Positions 33,634 to 53,370 of a stretch of 53,370 nt of DNA are shown piece after piece. The notes beneath the pieces are model-generated. The model worked only from the letters and a program-made list of their open reading frames with translations, searched no databases and had not been told where the DNA came from. The first letter of the stretch is position 1. The number at the start of each line of letters is the position of its first letter. Origin of the DNA: Acidimicrobiales bacterium (GTDB taxonomy: Bacteria; Actinomycetota; Acidimicrobiia; Acidimicrobiales; AC-14). Both the position numbers and the translations under genes were made by a program. The stretch is taken from contig JAODBK010000104.1 in the NCBI GenBank assembly GCA_025463925.1, positions 1-53,370 on the forward strand, given 5' to 3'.

Positions 33634-35244
<1,611 letters not shown>

Positions 35245-46816: not shown

Positions 46817-47387
46817 CGTCCTCCGCCGCCCGGTGGCCCCGTCGCAAGGAGGGCGACGGCTCGTCCGGCGCCGGGTGGCCGATCGCCAGCGCGCCCACGG
46901 GTGAGTAGTCGTCCGGGATGCCGAAGGCGGTCCGGAAGCGATCGGGCTCGAAGATGCCGAAGAACAGCGCGCCGAGATCGGCGTCGACCGCGGTCAGCAG
47001 CATGAGCAGCGCCGCGAAGCCGGCGTCGACGTCCCAGTAGGGCACCGGCCAGCGCGTCTCGTCGCGGTCGGTCCATCCCTTGTCGGGCTCGGCGTAGCGG
47101 TCGAGATACGCCGACTTGTGGGCCAGCGGCACGATGATCAGCGGCGCCGCGAAGAGGCCCTGCCACCGGAAGCGGCGGCGCGCCGCGTCGTCGGCGAAGG
47201 TCGCGGCCCAGAAGCGGGCCGTCTCGTCGGCGCCTTCCAGGACGAGGAACGCCCAGCCTTGGCTGAACCCGGCACTCGGTGCGCGCCGCGCGTTGGCGAG
47301 GATGCGCTCGACCGCGTCGCGATCGAGCGGCGCGTCGCGGAAGGCGCGGACCATGCGGCGGCGACGGACGACGTCCTGGAACTCCAC
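46794..47387 (-). CDS. Nitroreductase-family flavoprotein
   Basis: About 197 residues. It begins VEFQDVVRRRRMVRAFRD, with the FMN-binding Arg cluster, then RRAPSAGFSQGWAFLVLE and the C-terminal AIGHPAPDEPSPS. It probably binds FMN and reduces nitro, quinone or other acceptors with NAD(P)H. Start: GTG 47387 is preferred, since TAGGGT on the minus strand ends 10 bases before it and overlaps the alternative GTG at 47399. The end overlaps the convergent YyaL-like gene by 23 bases. Confidence 0.9.
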   Translation of the reverse strand: MEFQDVVRRRRMVRAFRDAPLDRDAVERILANARRAPSAGFSQGWAFLVLEGADETARFWAATFADDAARRRFRWQGLFAAPLIIVPLAHKSAYLDRYAEPDKGWTDRDETRWPVPYWDVDAGFAALLMLLTAVDADLGALFFGIFEPDRFRTAFGIPDDYSPVGALAIGHPAPDEPSPSLRRGHRAAEDVIHRGRW

Positions 47388-47433
47388 GGCAGCATCCACC
47401 CTACGAGCCGCGGCGGACGGCACCATCTGCGTC

Positions 47434-48087
47434 ATGCAGACGGTCGCGCTGCGCCGCACATCCGTCGTCGGCGCGCGTCTCGAGCTGCTGGTGCTGGCCG
47501 CGGAGCCGCGCGGCTGCGTCGCCGTCGACCTGGCGTCGGGCGCGTTCGTGCGGGCGCGCTACCCGATCGATCAGTGGGTGCCGCTGGCGCCGTTCGACGT
47601 CGCCGTCGCCGAGATCGCCGAAGCCGAGCACCCGGCCGACGTGTCGCGGCCCGAGTCGATCGACCTCGCCGCCGCCCCGGCCCGCAACGGCCGGATGTCG
47701 CCGCGGCGCGCCGAGCGGTGGCTGAAGGCGCTGCATCAGCCGCGCGGCCAGGTGGTGCTCGGGTTCCCCGGCCCGGCGGCGCCGTACTGGACGCTCACCG
47801 GCGACCGGCCGTCGGTCACGCTGGTCGACGCGCCGGTCGGGCTGCACGCCGTCCGCGACCCGGAGGGCTTCCGGGTGCGGCTCCCGTGGCGGGGCACCCG
47901 GCTCGACCTGCCGCTCGCCGACCACCACCTGGCCGCCGCGCTCGACGACCTCGGTCGGGCCCGCATCGGGTCGGGCGACCTCCAGCGGGTGCTCGGCTTC
48001 CGCCCGAAGCGCGTCCTCGCGGTGCTCACCCCACCGTTCCGCGGCTACTGCTACAAGGTCGCGGCCGCCCTCCTCCCCACCCGCTGA
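47434..48087 (+). CDS. Protein of unknown function (actinobacterial)
   Basis: A 217-residue protein that I do not recognise. It is rich in beta strands at the start (LELLVLAAEPRGCVAVDLASGAFV cut by loops), contains NGRMSPRRAERWLKALHQP, and near the end FRPKRVLAVLTPPFRGYCYK. No signal peptide, membrane segment or catalytic motif is visible. Codon use matches its neighbours. It is divergent from the nitroreductase and is followed by direct repeats and the left hairpin repeat of the DUF559 unit. Confidence 0.65.
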   Translation: MQTVALRRTSVVGARLELLVLAAEPRGCVAVDLASGAFVRARYPIDQWVPLAPFDVAVAEIAEAEHPADVSRPESIDLAAAPARNGRMSPRRAERWLKALHQPRGQVVLGFPGPAAPYWTLTGDRPSVTLVDAPVGLHAVRDPEGFRVRLPWRGTRLDLPLADHHLAAALDDLGRARIGSGDLQRVLGFRPKRVLAVLTPPFRGYCYKVAAALLPTR

Positions 48088-48099
48088 CCCGCACCCACT

Positions 48100-48129
48100 G
48101 CGCCCATAGCGCCCACCGCGCCCATAGCG
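48100..48129. repeat. Short direct repeat next to the DUF559 unit
   Basis: GCGCCCATAGCG occurs at 48100-48111 and again at 48118-48129, 18 bases apart. The second copy ends one base before the left hairpin repeat. It could be a slippage product or a binding array; nothing more can be said. Confidence 0.6.
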
Positions 48130-48130
48130 A

Positions 48131-48176
48131 TTCTGGACATCGCTGGTGTCGCAGAGCGGCACCAGCTGCGGGGAAA
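48131..48176 (+). repeat. Left hairpin repeat (46 bases) of the DUF559 unit
   Basis: Starts TTCTGGACATCG, then a hairpin CTGGTGTCGC-AGA-GCGGCACCAG, then CTGCGGGGAAA. It matches the reverse complement of 49138-49183 at 39 of 46 positions. It ends 37 bases before the ATG of the enclosed gene. Confidence 0.85.
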
Positions 48177-48213
48177 ACGTTGCTGTCATACCCCGCGAGT
48201 TTGATGGCGGGTC

Positions 48214-49134
48214 ATGACCGACGGGGAACGCACGCTCGACCTGATCGCCGAACAACAGCACGGCCTCATCACCCGGGAGCAAGCGCGCCGGCTCGGCGTC
48301 GACGGCTCCTGCATCGCGAGGCGCATGCGCCAGGGCCGGTGGGATCGGGTGGGCCGGTCGGTGTACCGCCTGTCGGGGTCGCCCAAGACGGCGGCGCAGA
48401 CGTTGATGGCCGCGGTCCTCGGCGCCGGACCGCAGACGGTCGCGGCCCGCGAGTCGGCGGCTGCGCTGTCGCGACTGCCCGGCTTTCGACTCGTCCCGCC
48501 CCAGATGCTCCGGCCCCAGGGCAGGGACGCCGAAGATCGTCGTCCCGGTCTGCGTCTCACGTGCTGGCTGCCGGCGTCACACATCACCGTCGTCGACGCG
48601 ATCCCGACGACGACCGCGGTTCGGACGGCATTCGATCTCTGTGGAGCCATCCACCCGAAGCGAGCCGAACGGGCGCTGGACAACGGCCTGGCGATGAAGC
48701 TGTTCACCGTCGACCAATGCACGGCTCTCGTCCACGACCTCTGCAAGTCGGGTCGCGCCGGCAGCACGCTGTTCCGCGAGCTGGTCGAAGCGCGGGGCGG
48801 CGGCTACGTGGCGCCGGAGAGCGAACTCGAGGCCCGGTTCATCGACCTCGCCGTGGCCGCCGGCTTCGATCGGCCGGTCAGGCAACTGAACCTCGGCGAC
48901 GACGCCGGCTTCATCGGGCGGGTCGACTTCGCGTGGCCGTCGGCGCGGCTCATCGTCGAGGTGGATGGGCGGCGCTGGCACGGCGCCAAGCTCGACCGCG
49001 ACGCCGACGAACAGCGACACAACCGGCTCACCGCCGCCGGCTGGCACGTCCTGCGGATCTCGTGGGACCAGCTCACCCGCCGACCCCACGAGGTCGTGGC
49101 CCTGCTCTCCGCGTTCCTCAACCGGGCCGCCTGA
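48214..49134 (+). CDS. AbiEi-type winged helix fused to DUF559 nuclease-like domain
   Basis: A 306-residue protein. The N-terminal ~60 residues form a winged helix of the AbiEi antitoxin type (LIAEQQHGLITREQARRLG, then RMRQGRWDRVGRSVYRLSG). The C-terminal ~110 residues are DUF559, a PD-(D/E)XK fold related to Vsr endonuclease: Glu in PESELEARF, Asp in GRVDFAWP, Glu-x-Asp in LIVEVDGRRWHG, then AGWHVLRISWDQLTRRP. All likely catalytic residues are present. No AbiEii toxin gene is adjacent. Solitary genes of this type are common in Actinobacteria without known function. The gene lies exactly between two inverted hairpin repeats, its stop only 3 bases from the right one. Confidence 0.88.
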   Translation: MTDGERTLDLIAEQQHGLITREQARRLGVDGSCIARRMRQGRWDRVGRSVYRLSGSPKTAAQTLMAAVLGAGPQTVAARESAAALSRLPGFRLVPPQMLRPQGRDAEDRRPGLRLTCWLPASHITVVDAIPTTTAVRTAFDLCGAIHPKRAERALDNGLAMKLFTVDQCTALVHDLCKSGRAGSTLFRELVEARGGGYVAPESELEARFIDLAVAAGFDRPVRQLNLGDDAGFIGRVDFAWPSARLIVEVDGRRWHGAKLDRDADEQRHNRLTAAGWHVLRISWDQLTRRPHEVVALLSAFLNRAA

Positions 49135-49137
49135 GGC

Positions 49138-49183
49138 TTTCCCCGCAGTTGGTGTCGCAGGGCGACACCAACGATGTTCAGAA
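49138..49183 (-). repeat. Right hairpin repeat (46 bases) of the DUF559 unit, inverted
   Basis: Reads TTTCCCCGCA, then the perfect hairpin GTTGGTGTCGC-AGG-GCGACACCAAC, then GATGTTCAGAA on the plus strand. It is the inverted partner of 48131-48176. Where the left copy has a C-G pair at the base of the hairpin, this copy has T-A, a compensatory change. It also lies between two convergent genes and could act as their terminator. Confidence 0.85.
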
Positions 49184-49195
49184 CCGCAGGAGCGG

Positions 49196-49891
49196 TTACT
49201 TGCCGGCGGGGCCGACGCGGGCGGCCAGGTCCTCGGCCATGGCCCAACCGAAGGCGATGAGCGAGTCGTGGCGCTTGTGGTTCAGGCTCTTGAAGAACGC
49301 GACGACGTCGGCCGCGACGGCGTCAGGCTTCAGCGCCTCGTGGTCGAGCGCGCCGCAGGGGTTGCCGTCGCCGGCCAGGACGAACGTCCGGTCGTCGATC
49401 CGGCTCTCGGCGCCGAACCGCTTGCTCAGCCGGCGCGACCATGCCCGCTCCTCGCCGGTGGCCTTGTGGCCGGGCCGGGGCACCAGGTCCTCGAGGCCCT
49501 TGAAGGCCTGGAACCCGGCCGGGTCGATCAGGCGGGTGCCCACCAGCACGTCCTCGTCGGGGAACGCCAGCACCGCCCGCCGGAGCTGGTCGCCCATGAC
49601 CGCCTTGAGCGCGCTGTCCCGCTTGGCGCCGCGCTTGACCGATGCCATGCCGATGAGCACGCACGGCGTGCCGCCGATGCGCTCCAGGGTGCAGAAGGAG
49701 AATCCCAGCAGCTTGCCGCCGTCCCGGGCCTGGGTGACGAGCACCCACTCCTCCCGTTGCTTCGACAGCAGCCCGACGTCGTAGCCGGCGGGGCCGTCGG
49801 CGCAGATGTCGGCCATCTCAGACAGCTCGGCATCGCTCAGCGCGGTGGTGTCCTTGGTCTCGATGTCGATCGCCATCGCGGGGTTGCTCAC
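49196..49891 (-). CDS. Protein of unknown function, possibly acetyltransferase-like fold
   Basis: About 231 residues. The central part (DGGKLLGFSFCTLERIGGTPCVLIG split by a turn) looks like the strands of a GNAT-like fold, but no acetyl-CoA loop is clear. Later FVLAGDGNPCGALDHEALKP and NHKRHDSLIAFGWAMAEDL have no match that I know. The start is the GTG at 49891 or the ATG at 49876; neither has a decisive ribosome site. It follows dnaE on the same strand after 34 bases and may be read with it. Confidence 0.7.
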   Translation of the reverse strand: MSNPAMAIDIETKDTTALSDAELSEMADICADGPAGYDVGLLSKQREEWVLVTQARDGGKLLGFSFCTLERIGGTPCVLIGMASVKRGAKRDSALKAVMGDQLRRAVLAFPDEDVLVGTRLIDPAGFQAFKGLEDLVPRPGHKATGEERAWSRRLSKRFGAESRIDDRTFVLAGDGNPCGALDHEALKPDAVAADVVAFFKSLNHKRHDSLIAFGWAMAEDLAARVGPAGK

Positions 49892-49925: not shown

Positions 49926-52900
49926 TCAGGTCAATAGTTCAATCGGTCCCTCTAGAGTACGCAACTCGCCGCAGAACCCGTTCCCGATGGACACCCGGTA
50001 CCGGTCGGACAGCCGGATCCGGTGGGGGCCGACGTGCAGGATGACGTCCCGGTCCCCGGGATGCTCGAGCACGCACTGCTTCAGGCTTGCGATCACGGTG
50101 GCCGGCGGGTATGGCGGGAGCTTCAGCTCGACCGCGGCCCCGATGTCCCCCTCGGCCGGCAGGGCCACCGGCTTCACCTCGAGGGCCATGATCTTGGCCG
50201 GCTCCTCCCGCAGGTCCAGCCGGCCCTTCACGCAGATGACGGCGTCGTCGGACAGCATGGGCCCGACCTCCATCATCGTCTTCGGGAAGACCATCACCTC
50301 GATGGCGGCCTGGAGGTCCTCCAGCACGAACACCGCCATCAGGTCGCCCCGCTTGGTGTACTTCCGCTGCAGCGAGGTCACGACGCCGCCGACCCAGCGG
50401 CAGTCGCCGTCCTTCATCTCGCGGAACTCGGCGATGGAGCAATCCGACGCCCGCCGGAGCGCGCCCTCGGCCCCCATCAGCGGGTGGTCGCTGACATACA
50501 GCCCGAGCATCTCCTTCTCGGACGACAGTCGGAGGGTCTTGTCGAACTCGACGTCGGGGATGTCGATCCGGTCGACGGGAACGGTGTCGGCCGGATCGGC
50601 CATCGAGCCGAAGAGGTCGAACTGGCCCTCGGCCTCCTTCCGGCGCCGGTCGAGTACCCGGTCGACGATCTGCTCGAACACCAGCAGCAGACCCTTGCGC
50701 GGGTGGCCCATCGAGTCGAAGCCGCCGGCCTTGATCAGCGACTCGATGGTGCGCTTGTTGAGGACCTGCGGGTCGACGCGATCGCAGAAGTCGTAGAAGT
50801 CGGCGAACGGCCCGTTGGCCTCGCGCTCGACGAGCAGCTGCGCCACCAGGCCCTCGCCGACGTTGCGGATCGCCGACAGGCCGAACGGGATGGTGCGGTC
50901 GAGCGCGGTGAAGTCGGAGCCCGACACGTTGACGTCCGGCACCAGCACCTGGATGCCGAGGGCCCGGCACTCGGCCAGGTACACCGCGGTCTTGTCCTTG
51001 TCGCCCTTCACCGACGTCAGCAGCGCCGCCAGGTACTGCACCGGGTAGTGGGCCTTGAGGTACGCCGTCTGGTACGCGACGAAGCCGTAGCCGTACGAGT
51101 GGCTCTTGTTGAACGCGTAGTCGGCGAACGGCTCGATCATGTCGAAGAGTTGCTTGCCGAGCTCCTTGCCGTAGCCGGTGCGCTCGCACCCGTCGACGAA
51201 CTGCTCGCGCTCCTTCTTGATGAGGACGCGATCCTTCTTCCCGCAGTTGTGGACGAGGAAGTCATCGACCAGCGCGTAGGGCCGGCCGGGGTTGGCCATC
51301 CGGAAGTCGAAGCACTCCTTCTCGCCGACATACTCGACCGACACGACGGTGTCCCAGATCAGATCACCAGTGCGCAAGTCCTCGAGCCGCTCCGAGAACA
51401 GCAACATGTCGAGCGTGTAGCGGTGGAGCACCCGACAATTCGTATAGCCGACGGAACTGACGCCCAGCTGGCGCTTGCTCTTTCCCGTGACCGAGACGCG
51501 GCGCTCCAACTCGGCCGCGAGGAACGAGGACGGGATGCCAATGTTCGTCGCGCTCCATCCAGATCCCCATTCGTAGAGATGCCGCGCCGCTTTGGCGGAC
51601 TTGCGCGGCGTCAGGTGCGGCTCGACCACGAAGGCGAACTGCTTGGCCATGCTCTTGTCGGCCACCGACAGCGTCCAATGTGTCCCATGACCGGGAATTT
51701 CCCTCGAGTAGAGGTTCGACGTGAGGCCACACCGAAGGAGCATGCGCTTGAGCGCGAGGCAGACAGCCCTGCTCTTGGATCCATAATGGACACCCGATGC
51801 ATCCGCCCACCCGTCGGCACAGAAGTACAGACCCAGAAATCGCTCCACCTTCCGGCGTGGGGCATTGATGATCCGCAGCGGGATCGACTTGTCGCCCGCG
51901 AGGCCGAACGATCCCAGGACGCCTTCGAGCGACAGCAACTCCGCCTTCGTCAAACGAATCTGCGTGACACGACGCTCGTTGGTCGATTCCCTCGTCGCGG
52001 CGTAACCGAAGTGGACCGCGAACGCCGACCGGAACACACTGATCAGATCCGGATCGGCGTTGGTGAAATGACCGTTCGCGTGGAAGCCGTTTCGGAGCTC
52101 AGGGGTGTAGCCCTCGGAGATCAGAAGTGCGGCGAGGTCGATCTCCGCATCGGAGATGTGGCTGTTTCCCTCAGTCGCCGTGCGGGCTGCCACTCCGACG
52201 AGGTCGCCTGATTTGATGTCGGACAGCCGGCGCCACTCGTCCTCCACGAGGAAGGGATGGTTCCCCGTGGCCTCGATCGAGTACCCCGTCGAGGTCGTGA
52301 GCCGGTAGACCGGCTTGGAGCCGACGGACCAGACGTCGTCGACCGCTTCGAATCGGCTCGTCGCCGACGTCTGGTCGATGGTTTGCACCCGTCGGTCACG
52401 CAGTGCCATGACCCTTTCGAGCGGGACGTAGCCCCGCTCCTTGGTCAACATGAGTGATCCGGCCGGCAGGCAGGCCTTCCGGAGGTTGTCGGCGGCTTCG
52501 AGCGAGTACCCGGCGAACTTGGCCGCGACCCGCATCAGGCCCTCCTGGTAGATCACCAGGCCGTAGGTGTCGTGCAGGATCTCCTCGGCGTCGGCGTGGA
52601 AGTACACCACCGGCGTTCGGCCGTTCTTCCGGTCGGCGTACTCGTTGTGCCAGTTCTGGGCCATCGGCCCGGGCCGGTAGAGCGCGACCAGCGCGGCCAC
52701 GTCGTCGAACGACGTCGGCGCCAGCGAGCGCATCAGCGCCCGCATCGGCCCGCCTTCGAGTTGGAACACGCCGATCGACTCGCCACGACGCAGCATCGAC
52801 AACGTGAGGTCGTCGTCGAGCGGGATGGCGTCGATGTCGAGCGCCTCGCCCAAGGTCTCGCGGATGAGCGTGACCGTCATGTCCATGACGTCGAGGTTCC

Positions 52901-53370
52901 GCAGGCCGAGGAAGTCCATCTTCAGCAGGCCGAGGTCCTCGACGCCGTGCATCTCGTACTGCGTGACGATCGGCGCCTCCTCGACCGGCGCGCCGTTCTC
53001 GCCCGCCGCGCCACTCGCCGGACCACCACCACCGGGCGCTGGCTTGCGCTGGATCGGCAGGTACTCGGTGAGCGGGTCGCGCGTGATGACGACCGCCGCG
53101 GCGTGGATGCCGTCCTGGCGGCGCAGGCCCTCGAGCCCCTTCGCGACGTCGACGATCTGCTTCACGTCGGGCTCGGTGGCGTACATCGTCCGCAGGTCGG
53201 CAGCCATCTTGTAGCCGTCCTCGTACTTCGGGTGCGGCTCGAGGCAGGCGAAGAGCGGCGTGTCGCGCCCCATCACCAGAGGGGGCATCGCCTTGGACAC
53301 CCGCAACCCCACCTGGAACGGATGACCCAGCACGCGGGCCGCGTCCTGCACCGCGGCACGCGCCTTGATC
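49926..53370 (-). CDS. dnaE: DNA polymerase III alpha subunit, C-terminal part, interrupted by an intein (5' end outside window)
   Basis: The frame is open to the window edge; the N-terminal PHP domain and first two catalytic Asp lie beyond it. Present are the fingers and palm with the third catalytic Asp in LLKMDFLGLRNLDVMD, DGIHAAAVVITRDPL, GVFQLEGGPMRAL, the segment after the intein FNKSHSYGYGFVAYQTAYLKAHYP, the helix-hairpin-helix part, an OB domain (GGVVTSLQRKYTKRGDLMAVF) and the tau-binding end. It is the replicative polymerase (DnaE1 type, as shown by the long C-terminus). A 409-residue intein sits in frame at 51246-52472; without it the sequence reads on smoothly as NLRKA-CGKKDRVLIKKERE. 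Confidence 0.95.
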   Translation of the reverse strand, partial: IKARAAVQDAARVLGHPFQVGLRVSKAMPPLVMGRDTPLFACLEPHPKYEDGYKMAADLRTMYATEPDVKQIVDVAKGLEGLRRQDGIHAAAVVITRDPLTEYLPIQRKPAPGGGGPASGAAGENGAPVEEAPIVTQYEMHGVEDLGLLKMDFLGLRNLDVMDMTVTLIRETLGEALDIDAIPLDDDLTLSMLRRGESIGVFQLEGGPMRALMRSLAPTSFDDVAALVALYRPGPMAQNWHNEYADRKNGRTPVVYFHADAEEILHDTYGLVIYQEGLMRVAAKFAGYSLEAADNLRKACLPAGSLMLTKERGYVPLERVMALRDRRVQTIDQTSATSRFEAVDDVWSVGSKPVYRLTTSTGYSIEATGNHPFLVEDEWRRLSDIKSGDLVGVAARTATEGNSHISDAEIDLAALLISEGYTPELRNGFHANGHFTNADPDLISVFRSAFAVHFGYAATRESTNERRVTQIRLTKAELLSLEGVLGSFGLAGDKSIPLRIINAPRRKVERFLGLYFCADGWADASGVHYGSKSRAVCLALKRMLLRCGLTSNLYSREIPGHGTHWTLSVADKSMAKQFAFVVEPHLTPRKSAKAARHLYEWGSGWSATNIGIPSSFLAAELERRVSVTGKSKRQLGVSSVGYTNCRVLHRYTLDMLLFSERLEDLRTGDLIWDTVVSVEYVGEKECFDFRMANPGRPYALVDDFLVHNCGKKDRVLIKKEREQFVDGCERTGYGKELGKQLFDMIEPFADYAFNKSHSYGYGFVAYQTAYLKAHYPVQYLAALLTSVKGDKDKTAVYLAECRALGIQVLVPDVNVSGSDFTALDRTIPFGLSAIRNVGEGLVAQLLVEREANGPFADFYDFCDRVDPQVLNKRTIESLIKAGGFDSMGHPRKGLLLVFEQIVDRVLDRRRKEAEGQFDLFGSMADPADTVPVDRIDIPDVEFDKTLRLSSEKEMLGLYVSDHPLMGAEGALRRASDCSIAEFREMKDGDCRWVGGVVTSLQRKYTKRGDLMAVFVLEDLQAAIEVMVFPKTMMEVGPMLSDDAVICVKGRLDLREEPAKIMALEVKPVALPAEGDIGAAVELKLPPYPPATVIASLKQCVLEHPGDRDVILHVGPHRIRLSDRYRVSIGNGFCGELRTLEGPIELLT
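51246..52472 (-). mobile_element. DnaE intein with LAGLIDADG homing endonuclease
   Basis: A 409-residue in-frame insertion. It begins with Cys (CLPAGSLMLT), has a block B TGNHPFLV (residues 69-76), two LAGLIDADG motifs (DLAALLISEG at 112-121 and FLGLYFCADG at 212-221, both keeping an acidic residue), a likely helix-turn-helix (RRVSVTGKSKRQLGVSS, about 324-340), block F ECFDFRMANPGRP and the splice end VDDFLVHN. The next host residue is Cys (CGKK). All residues for protein splicing and for endonuclease activity appear intact. Base use is less GC-rich than the surrounding dnaE, which suggests recent arrival. Confidence 0.95.

Follow-up and report, generated by a model that had tools for sequence, protein, structure and literature searches.

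The window analysed here, a contig of 53,370 nt from an Acidimicrobiales bacterium, contains an AbiEi-DUF559 gene enclosed by two inverted hairpins. We interpret it, with a probability of roughly 0.6, as one locus of a nuclease-partnered palindromic repeat system in which the protein would spread hairpins of about 50 nt in trans. Our results reveal flanking repeat pairs in about half of this gene family, repeat sequences specific to each gene, dispersed copies of the repeats, and lineage-specific solo copies at gene ends. From these observations we infer that the protein spreads the hairpins, and the many related genes with hairpins of their own point to a so far unrecorded type of miniature mobile DNA.

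The left hairpin (48130-48179, + strand; covariance model R1, 72.1 bits, E 4.7e-15 in G000) is a copy of a dispersed palindromic repeat, as indicated by BLAST against its own genome and by its fold, and consists of a 5′ arm TTCTGGACATCG, an 11-bp core stem, a 3-nt loop and a 3′ arm CTGCGGGGAAAA. The right hairpin (49135-49184, − strand; 71.1 bits, E 8.2e-15) lies in inverted orientation directly after the stop codon. A repeat finder run on the window reports 50-nt arms that are 84% complementary. Direct comparison of 48131-48176 with the reverse complement of 49138-49183 confirmed the description given in the earlier note, with 39 of 46 positions identical and the mismatches concentrated in the loop and in a compensated pair: the seven mismatches occupy positions 6, 13, 23, 24, 25, 29 and 35, three of them fall inside the 3-nt loop, and positions 13 and 35 represent a C-G pair changed to T-A. 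Ungapped flank-repeat scoring gives this pair a score of 30. A scan of 325 window positions with the same geometry, from which 47000-49500 was excluded, returned five positions at 16 or above, corresponding to four distinct repeat pairs, the best of which exceeds the hairpin pair with a score of 33; the pair score alone is therefore not decisive within the window. This best-scoring pair is a 53-nt direct repeat (34115-34167 and 35093-35145), presumably coding sequence common to adjoining ABC-type genes. The reality of the hairpin pair rests on its hairpin form, on further copies in the genome and on the survey of the gene family. A search of 47900-49400 against Rfam returned no family up to E 1, and no intron was recognised around the AbiEi-DUF559 gene in this search. 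Visual inspection revealed no target site duplication at the copies in the window or at the aligned G006 sites, where the intergenic alignments are rough, and no clear cut site was found. Short tandem repeats and C-rich or G-rich runs adjoin several hairpin copies (L002, L003, L004 and 48088-48130 in the window), and at L004 CCTCCCGCGTTCTG is repeated at the boundary of the hairpin copy.

The window palindrome, about 50 nt long, was found at 24 places in the source genome using BLAST followed by a covariance model. A DUF559 relative lies beside just two of these copies, those of the window, and the other 22 have none within the flanks checked (about 1.2-1.5 kb, shorter at contig ends). The earlier view of the hairpins as a closed unit enclosing one gene does not survive this distribution, and the hairpin is widespread without DUF559 genes, an outcome that the earlier note had regarded as speaking against a mobile element. 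Neighbours could be assigned for 21 copies using a custom gene-calling script (3 of the 24 were not assignable): 10 copies lie between convergent genes, nine between co-directional genes and two between divergent genes, 19 of the 21 being downstream of at least one gene. The proposal that structure has been kept despite sequence drift is borne out by the core stem, in which 97.4% of cells are paired across 21 own-genome copies and both sides have changed at four pairs, a number reached in none of 500 shuffles; sliding the partner breaks the signal. A common outer-arm pair with small changes is found in 15 of the 21 aligned copies, and the rest have different or symmetric arms. Because the outer arms differ among copies, this family is a mosaic. 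Outside the source genome, the covariance model has matches at E 1 in 37 of 98 other genomes, mostly weak or partial, and the exact core pattern had no match in genome_contigs, a collection that possibly does not include the source genome. A search for the Y1/RAYT transposase family (PF01797) returned no match at E 1 in the source genome, which is 96.7% complete. The best full-length matches, in genus g6 of the same family, proved on closer comparison to belong to another palindrome of equal size.

Flanking repeats are a strong feature of the AbiEi-DUF559 gene family. In a set drawn from the order (90 of 149 AbiEi-DUF559 matches were taken, and nine of these 90 were dropped for short flanks), upstream and downstream flanks contain a common repeat, inverted or direct, in 40 of 81 genes at a score of at least 16 and in 34 of 81 at a score of at least 20. 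With mismatched flanks, 200 permutations averaged 0.92 such genes (maximum 7) at the lower threshold and 0.14 (maximum 1) at the higher one, and none of 133 control genes (other genes of 450-1600 bases with full flanks) reached 16. Repeat pairs were likewise detected in 16 of 24 non-redundant genes of named genomes, a set obtained with one peptide pattern (34 named loci, minus two with short flanks and eight duplicates, many of them from MAGs), and in 16 of 26 genes from across the phylum, where L332 was left out as the IMCC26256 gene again, the flanks of L355 were too short and L360 gave no match. These last two sets were cross-checked for overlap at L332 only. Counted as pairs are L341, although its 35-nt exact repeat looks non-palindromic, and L250, from a MAG labelled Acidobacteria, whose repeats are weakly palindromic (scores of 7.8 and 8.6). 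Complete genomes are also represented among the members, namely those of Actinobacteria bacterium IMCC26256 and Aquihabitans sp. G128 (Acidimicrobiales). The interpretation of the earlier note is supported in part: pairs recur in all three sets as opposed to none in the controls, so that a lack of such flanks around other DUF559 genes, which the note had named as refuting, is not the general picture, although about half of the family is without a detectable pair (41 of 81 genes in the order-level set). Palindromes downstream of the pairless genes are no commoner than in controls (5/41 versus 11/111). Of the AbiEi genes in which no DUF559 domain was recognised, L026 reached a score of 9 and L024 gave no match. 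Long repeated stretches occupy both sides of the AbiEi-DUF559 genes at L348 and L356, with scores of 64.5 and 117.5.

The repeats are specific to their gene and genome. Paralogues within one genome each have different repeats; in the source genome, four of seven AbiEi-DUF559 matches have repeat pairs, every one of them different. With 27 upstream repeats joined into one query, 15 genomes had between 5 and 57 matches each (E ≤ 0.001), counts that include the genes' own flanks, and the best 27 candidates at most were scored in each genome. Among the matches listed, each repeat matches solely its source genome, and 12 of the 15 genomes have copies elsewhere than at the gene, at 27 or more places in G003 and at 13 or more in G006; G004, G012 and G021 have no such place among the matches listed. 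The nine genomes behind the named loci have 6 to 80 repeat matches each, with both strands and the genes' own flanks counted, and among the matches listed six of them have places away from the gene and the other three none. In G100 and G105 (behind L239 and L249, and including Aquihabitans sp. G128), palindromes are often paired about 72-84 nt apart, like REP doublets. The dispersed palindrome of genus g6 is the repeat that flanks a DUF559 gene of that genus (L167). In L148 (G009:C314), a copy of the genus g6 hairpin has next to it, at about 25-180, a 52-residue piece resembling the window DUF559 protein (35% identity, E 2.7e-4).

For the 47 pairs scoring at least 20, the upstream copy ends a median of 54 nt before the start codon and the downstream copy starts a median of 3 nt after the stop codon, 40 of the 47 lying within −15 to +30. 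A palindrome score of at least 12 is reached by at least one copy in 35 of 51 pairs scoring at least 18, compared to 2.5% of random 90-mers, some of the stretches compared being longer than 90; in the other 16 pairs both copies score below 12. The motif GWWCY was considered as a terminal signature and rejected as too weak, as the 5′ end carries it in 19 and the 3′ end in 16 of 51 pairs, versus 12% per 20-nt control window. Co-divergence of hairpin and protein is visible for the closest pair only and is mostly negative beyond it: proteins with 79% identity share their hairpin, pairs with 62% and 69% identity do not, and a pair with 58% does so weakly. The Mantel correlation between protein and hairpin divergence (r of 0.19, p 0.0004) is driven mainly by a single pair.

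We compared orthologous gene-end junctions in genomes of the same genus. Thirteen G006 solo sites were fetched and seven queried, five of which had orthologues aligned across the junction (L305, unaligned, was left out), and the G006 hairpins are missing at all eight orthologous junctions aligned in G004 and G008. Other palindromes are present at three of these junctions, with scores of 20.2 and 10 in G004 (L307 and L309) and 15.6 in G008 (L308), and the G004 junction with the palindrome scoring 10 also holds further sequence. Gene-end junctions look like repeated landing sites, and the pattern of solo hairpins fits repeated insertion at gene ends, the alternative being loss. In the window, the left neighbour of the AbiEi-DUF559 gene is gene X (47434-48087, + strand; no Pfam match at E 0.001; found by tblastn in L094, L098, L099 and L111) and its right neighbour is gene Y (49196-49891, − strand; no Pfam match at E 1; present in 39 of 41 genomes). 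The earlier note had recommended looking for sites without the unit, and the DUF559 gene is indeed absent from the X/Y junction in relatives: in L094, L098, L099 and L111, X and Y are separated by 63 to 185 bases that contain no DUF559 match, and the best palindrome of each of these four gaps has a score between 5.8 and 10.2. As these four relatives belong to other genera, the exact joint cannot be seen. In L103, L104 and L105 (genus g5), a different ORF, which we take to be Uma2-like, is found at or near the X/Y junction where the window has the DUF559 unit. One G006 unit is common to G004 and missing at the G008 site, which is not a clean empty site because another coding sequence, presumably TerC-like, sits there. 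The DNA polymerase III alpha gene beside Y (49926-53348 in the window, − strand) contains an intein with a LAGLIDADG domain (Pfam Intein_splicing, LAGLIDADG_3).

The AbiEi-DUF559 gene (48214-49134, + strand; ATG at 48214, TGA ending at 49134) encodes 306 amino acid residues with Pfam matches above cut-offs to AbiEi_4 (1.2e-11, residues 7-53), MTES_1575 (2.1e-10) and DUF559 (2.5e-9), the latter two at residues 237-301. The PADLOC AbiEi model also matches the protein at 1e-26. In an AlphaFold model of the whole protein (mean pLDDT of 89.2, pTM of 0.64), residues 1-195 (48214-48798, + strand) align with the AbiEi antitoxin of S. agalactiae (6y8q, Z 13.8 over 183 residues) as a predicted winged-helix DNA-binding domain followed by the AbiEi second domain. 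Residues 201-306 (48814-49131, + strand) form a predicted Vsr/EDxHD-like nuclease domain by structure alignment, with E206, D238, E249xD251, H256 and D265, and match I-Bth0305I (3r3p, Z 12.5), 3hrl (Z 12.5) and Vsr (1cw0, Z 10.1); a profile search of the protein also recovered 3hrl (8.4e-9) and 3r3p (2.5e-4). The model alignment thus agrees with the Vsr-like nuclease and winged helix proposed earlier, and predicts an AbiEi fold joined to a nuclease of the Vsr/I-Bth0305I homing type. A strict nuclease motif regex matched only 9 of 81 proteins, and aligned columns were used instead; in these columns E206, D238, E249, D251, H256 and D265 are nearly invariant among AbiEi-DUF559 proteins, which suggests an active nuclease. 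When 36 genes scoring at least 18 were compared with 39 scoring below 16, proteins of fewer than 250 residues being left out, these residues were about equally conserved with and without repeat pairs, except D265 (36/36 versus 31/39). Because the pairless genes keep the nuclease residues about equally, the protein may have another role. No adjoining AbiEii (DUF1814) toxin gene was recognised beside the AbiEi-DUF559 gene, as genes X and Y match no Pfam family.

A possible mechanism begins with recognition of the palindrome by the AbiEi-like module, as a double-stranded inverted repeat or as an extruded hairpin, in line with the reported binding of inverted repeats by AbiEi antitoxins (PMC7319586). 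Nicking or cutting by the nuclease would follow, either at the foot of the hairpin or at target sites at gene ends, after which the replication or repair machinery of the host would place a copy of the 50-nt element at the new site. Short hairpins would thereby spread in trans and the AbiEi-DUF559 gene itself would mostly stay put, by analogy with REPtrons, which are thought to spread REPs likewise, a hydrolytic nuclease here replacing the HuH transposase. The hairpins may also double as terminators or as the operator of the AbiEi-DUF559 gene. We know of no strand-transfer step for a hydrolytic nuclease alone, and this counts against the explanation.

Movement of the whole hairpin-gene-hairpin cassette, with solo hairpins as remnants of recombination between copies, would explain both the absence of the DUF559 gene at the X/Y junction in relatives and the unit that G006 shares with G004 and that is missing at the G008 site. 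This explanation is unlikely given that solo copies are far more numerous than units, making up 22 of the 24 places in the source genome, that the pairs differ when one genome has several paired genes, and that no target duplication was seen. Another interpretation is a transcription factor regulon: the AbiEi module would act on the upstream palindrome to control its own gene, the scattered copies would serve as operators, and the nuclease domain would have another role. AbiEi proteins are described as autoregulating through inverted repeats (PMC7319586), and the placement of the upstream copies, ending a median of 54 nt before the start codon, is compatible with such a function. A copy directly after the stop codon is no obvious operator, however, the scattered copies are mostly at 3′ ends, the active-site residues are conserved and the copies differ between species of one genus, all of which make a regulon quite improbable.

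The position of the own-genome copies, 19 of 21 assigned ones being downstream of at least one gene and 10 between convergent genes, is also what would be expected of ordinary gene-end hairpins or (bidirectional) terminators under selection, between two of which a DUF559 gene merely landed. We consider this very unlikely. Copies within one genome are alike over about 50 nt, arms included, none of 133 other genes has such pairs, and the G006 hairpins are missing at eight orthologous gene ends. Moreover, upstream and downstream copies match each other and not the copies of other AbiEi-DUF559 genes, a gene-specific pairing that strains this interpretation.

If hairpins are indeed spread by their AbiEi-DUF559 partner, a second, unrelated enzyme partner would mean that hairpin spreading evolved more than once. 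A role would also emerge for an abundant protein family that currently goes under the names 'AbiEi antitoxin' or 'DUF559', with as many as 15 matches in one genome, and many gene-hairpin pairs would become available for studying the recognition of hairpins by proteins. The broader hypothesis, which in our view stands about evenly balanced, is that miniature palindromic mobile elements are widespread in Actinomycetota and owe their spread to dedicated AbiEi-Vsr-like nucleases that each recognise one particular hairpin, their own, as a second, independently evolved REPtron-like system in which nicking or cutting and host repair replace HuH strand transfer.

AbiEi-DUF559 genes with their own hairpin repeats were not found in the open-licence literature of PubMed Central. 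Several known systems share parts of this organization. The fold of residues 1-195 is that of the type IV toxin-antitoxin antitoxin AbiEi (6y8q), whereas the protein described here carries a nuclease domain and has no recognised AbiEii gene beside it. With Vsr and the EDxHD homing endonuclease I-Bth0305I (3r3p) it shares the nuclease fold and the ExD...H...D residues, which are conserved here and resemble the EDxHD signature; unlike in I-Bth0305I, the nuclease is fused to an AbiEi module and has hairpins on both sides. CGTC-tagged REPs are also dispersed palindromes, form a large class apparently without a dedicated transposase, the authors reporting none adjoining, and are mainly found in alpha-Proteobacteria (PMC3733652). 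The closest likeness is to the REPtron (TnpA_REP/RAYT). As described in PMC6006769 and PMC8266576, a REPtron gene lies between short palindromes and is paired with a repeat family of its own, the repeats are scattered through intergenic DNA, and one genome can contain several gene-repeat pairs. The enzyme partner described for dispersed bacterial palindromes is the HuH protein TnpA_REP. Here, in contrast, the enzyme combines AbiEi with a predicted Vsr-like nuclease and is not a HuH/Y1 transposase (PF01797), the palindromes are about 50 nt long with copy numbers in the tens, and the GT[AG]G foot is missing from the 21 aligned own-genome copies. The window locus thus resembles a REPtron in layout but is not a member of that group, because the flanked gene encodes no HuH transposase and the search of the source genome returned no Y1 transposase. 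The layout of a flanked gene is already known, and the novelty lies in an enzyme unrelated to HuH transposases.
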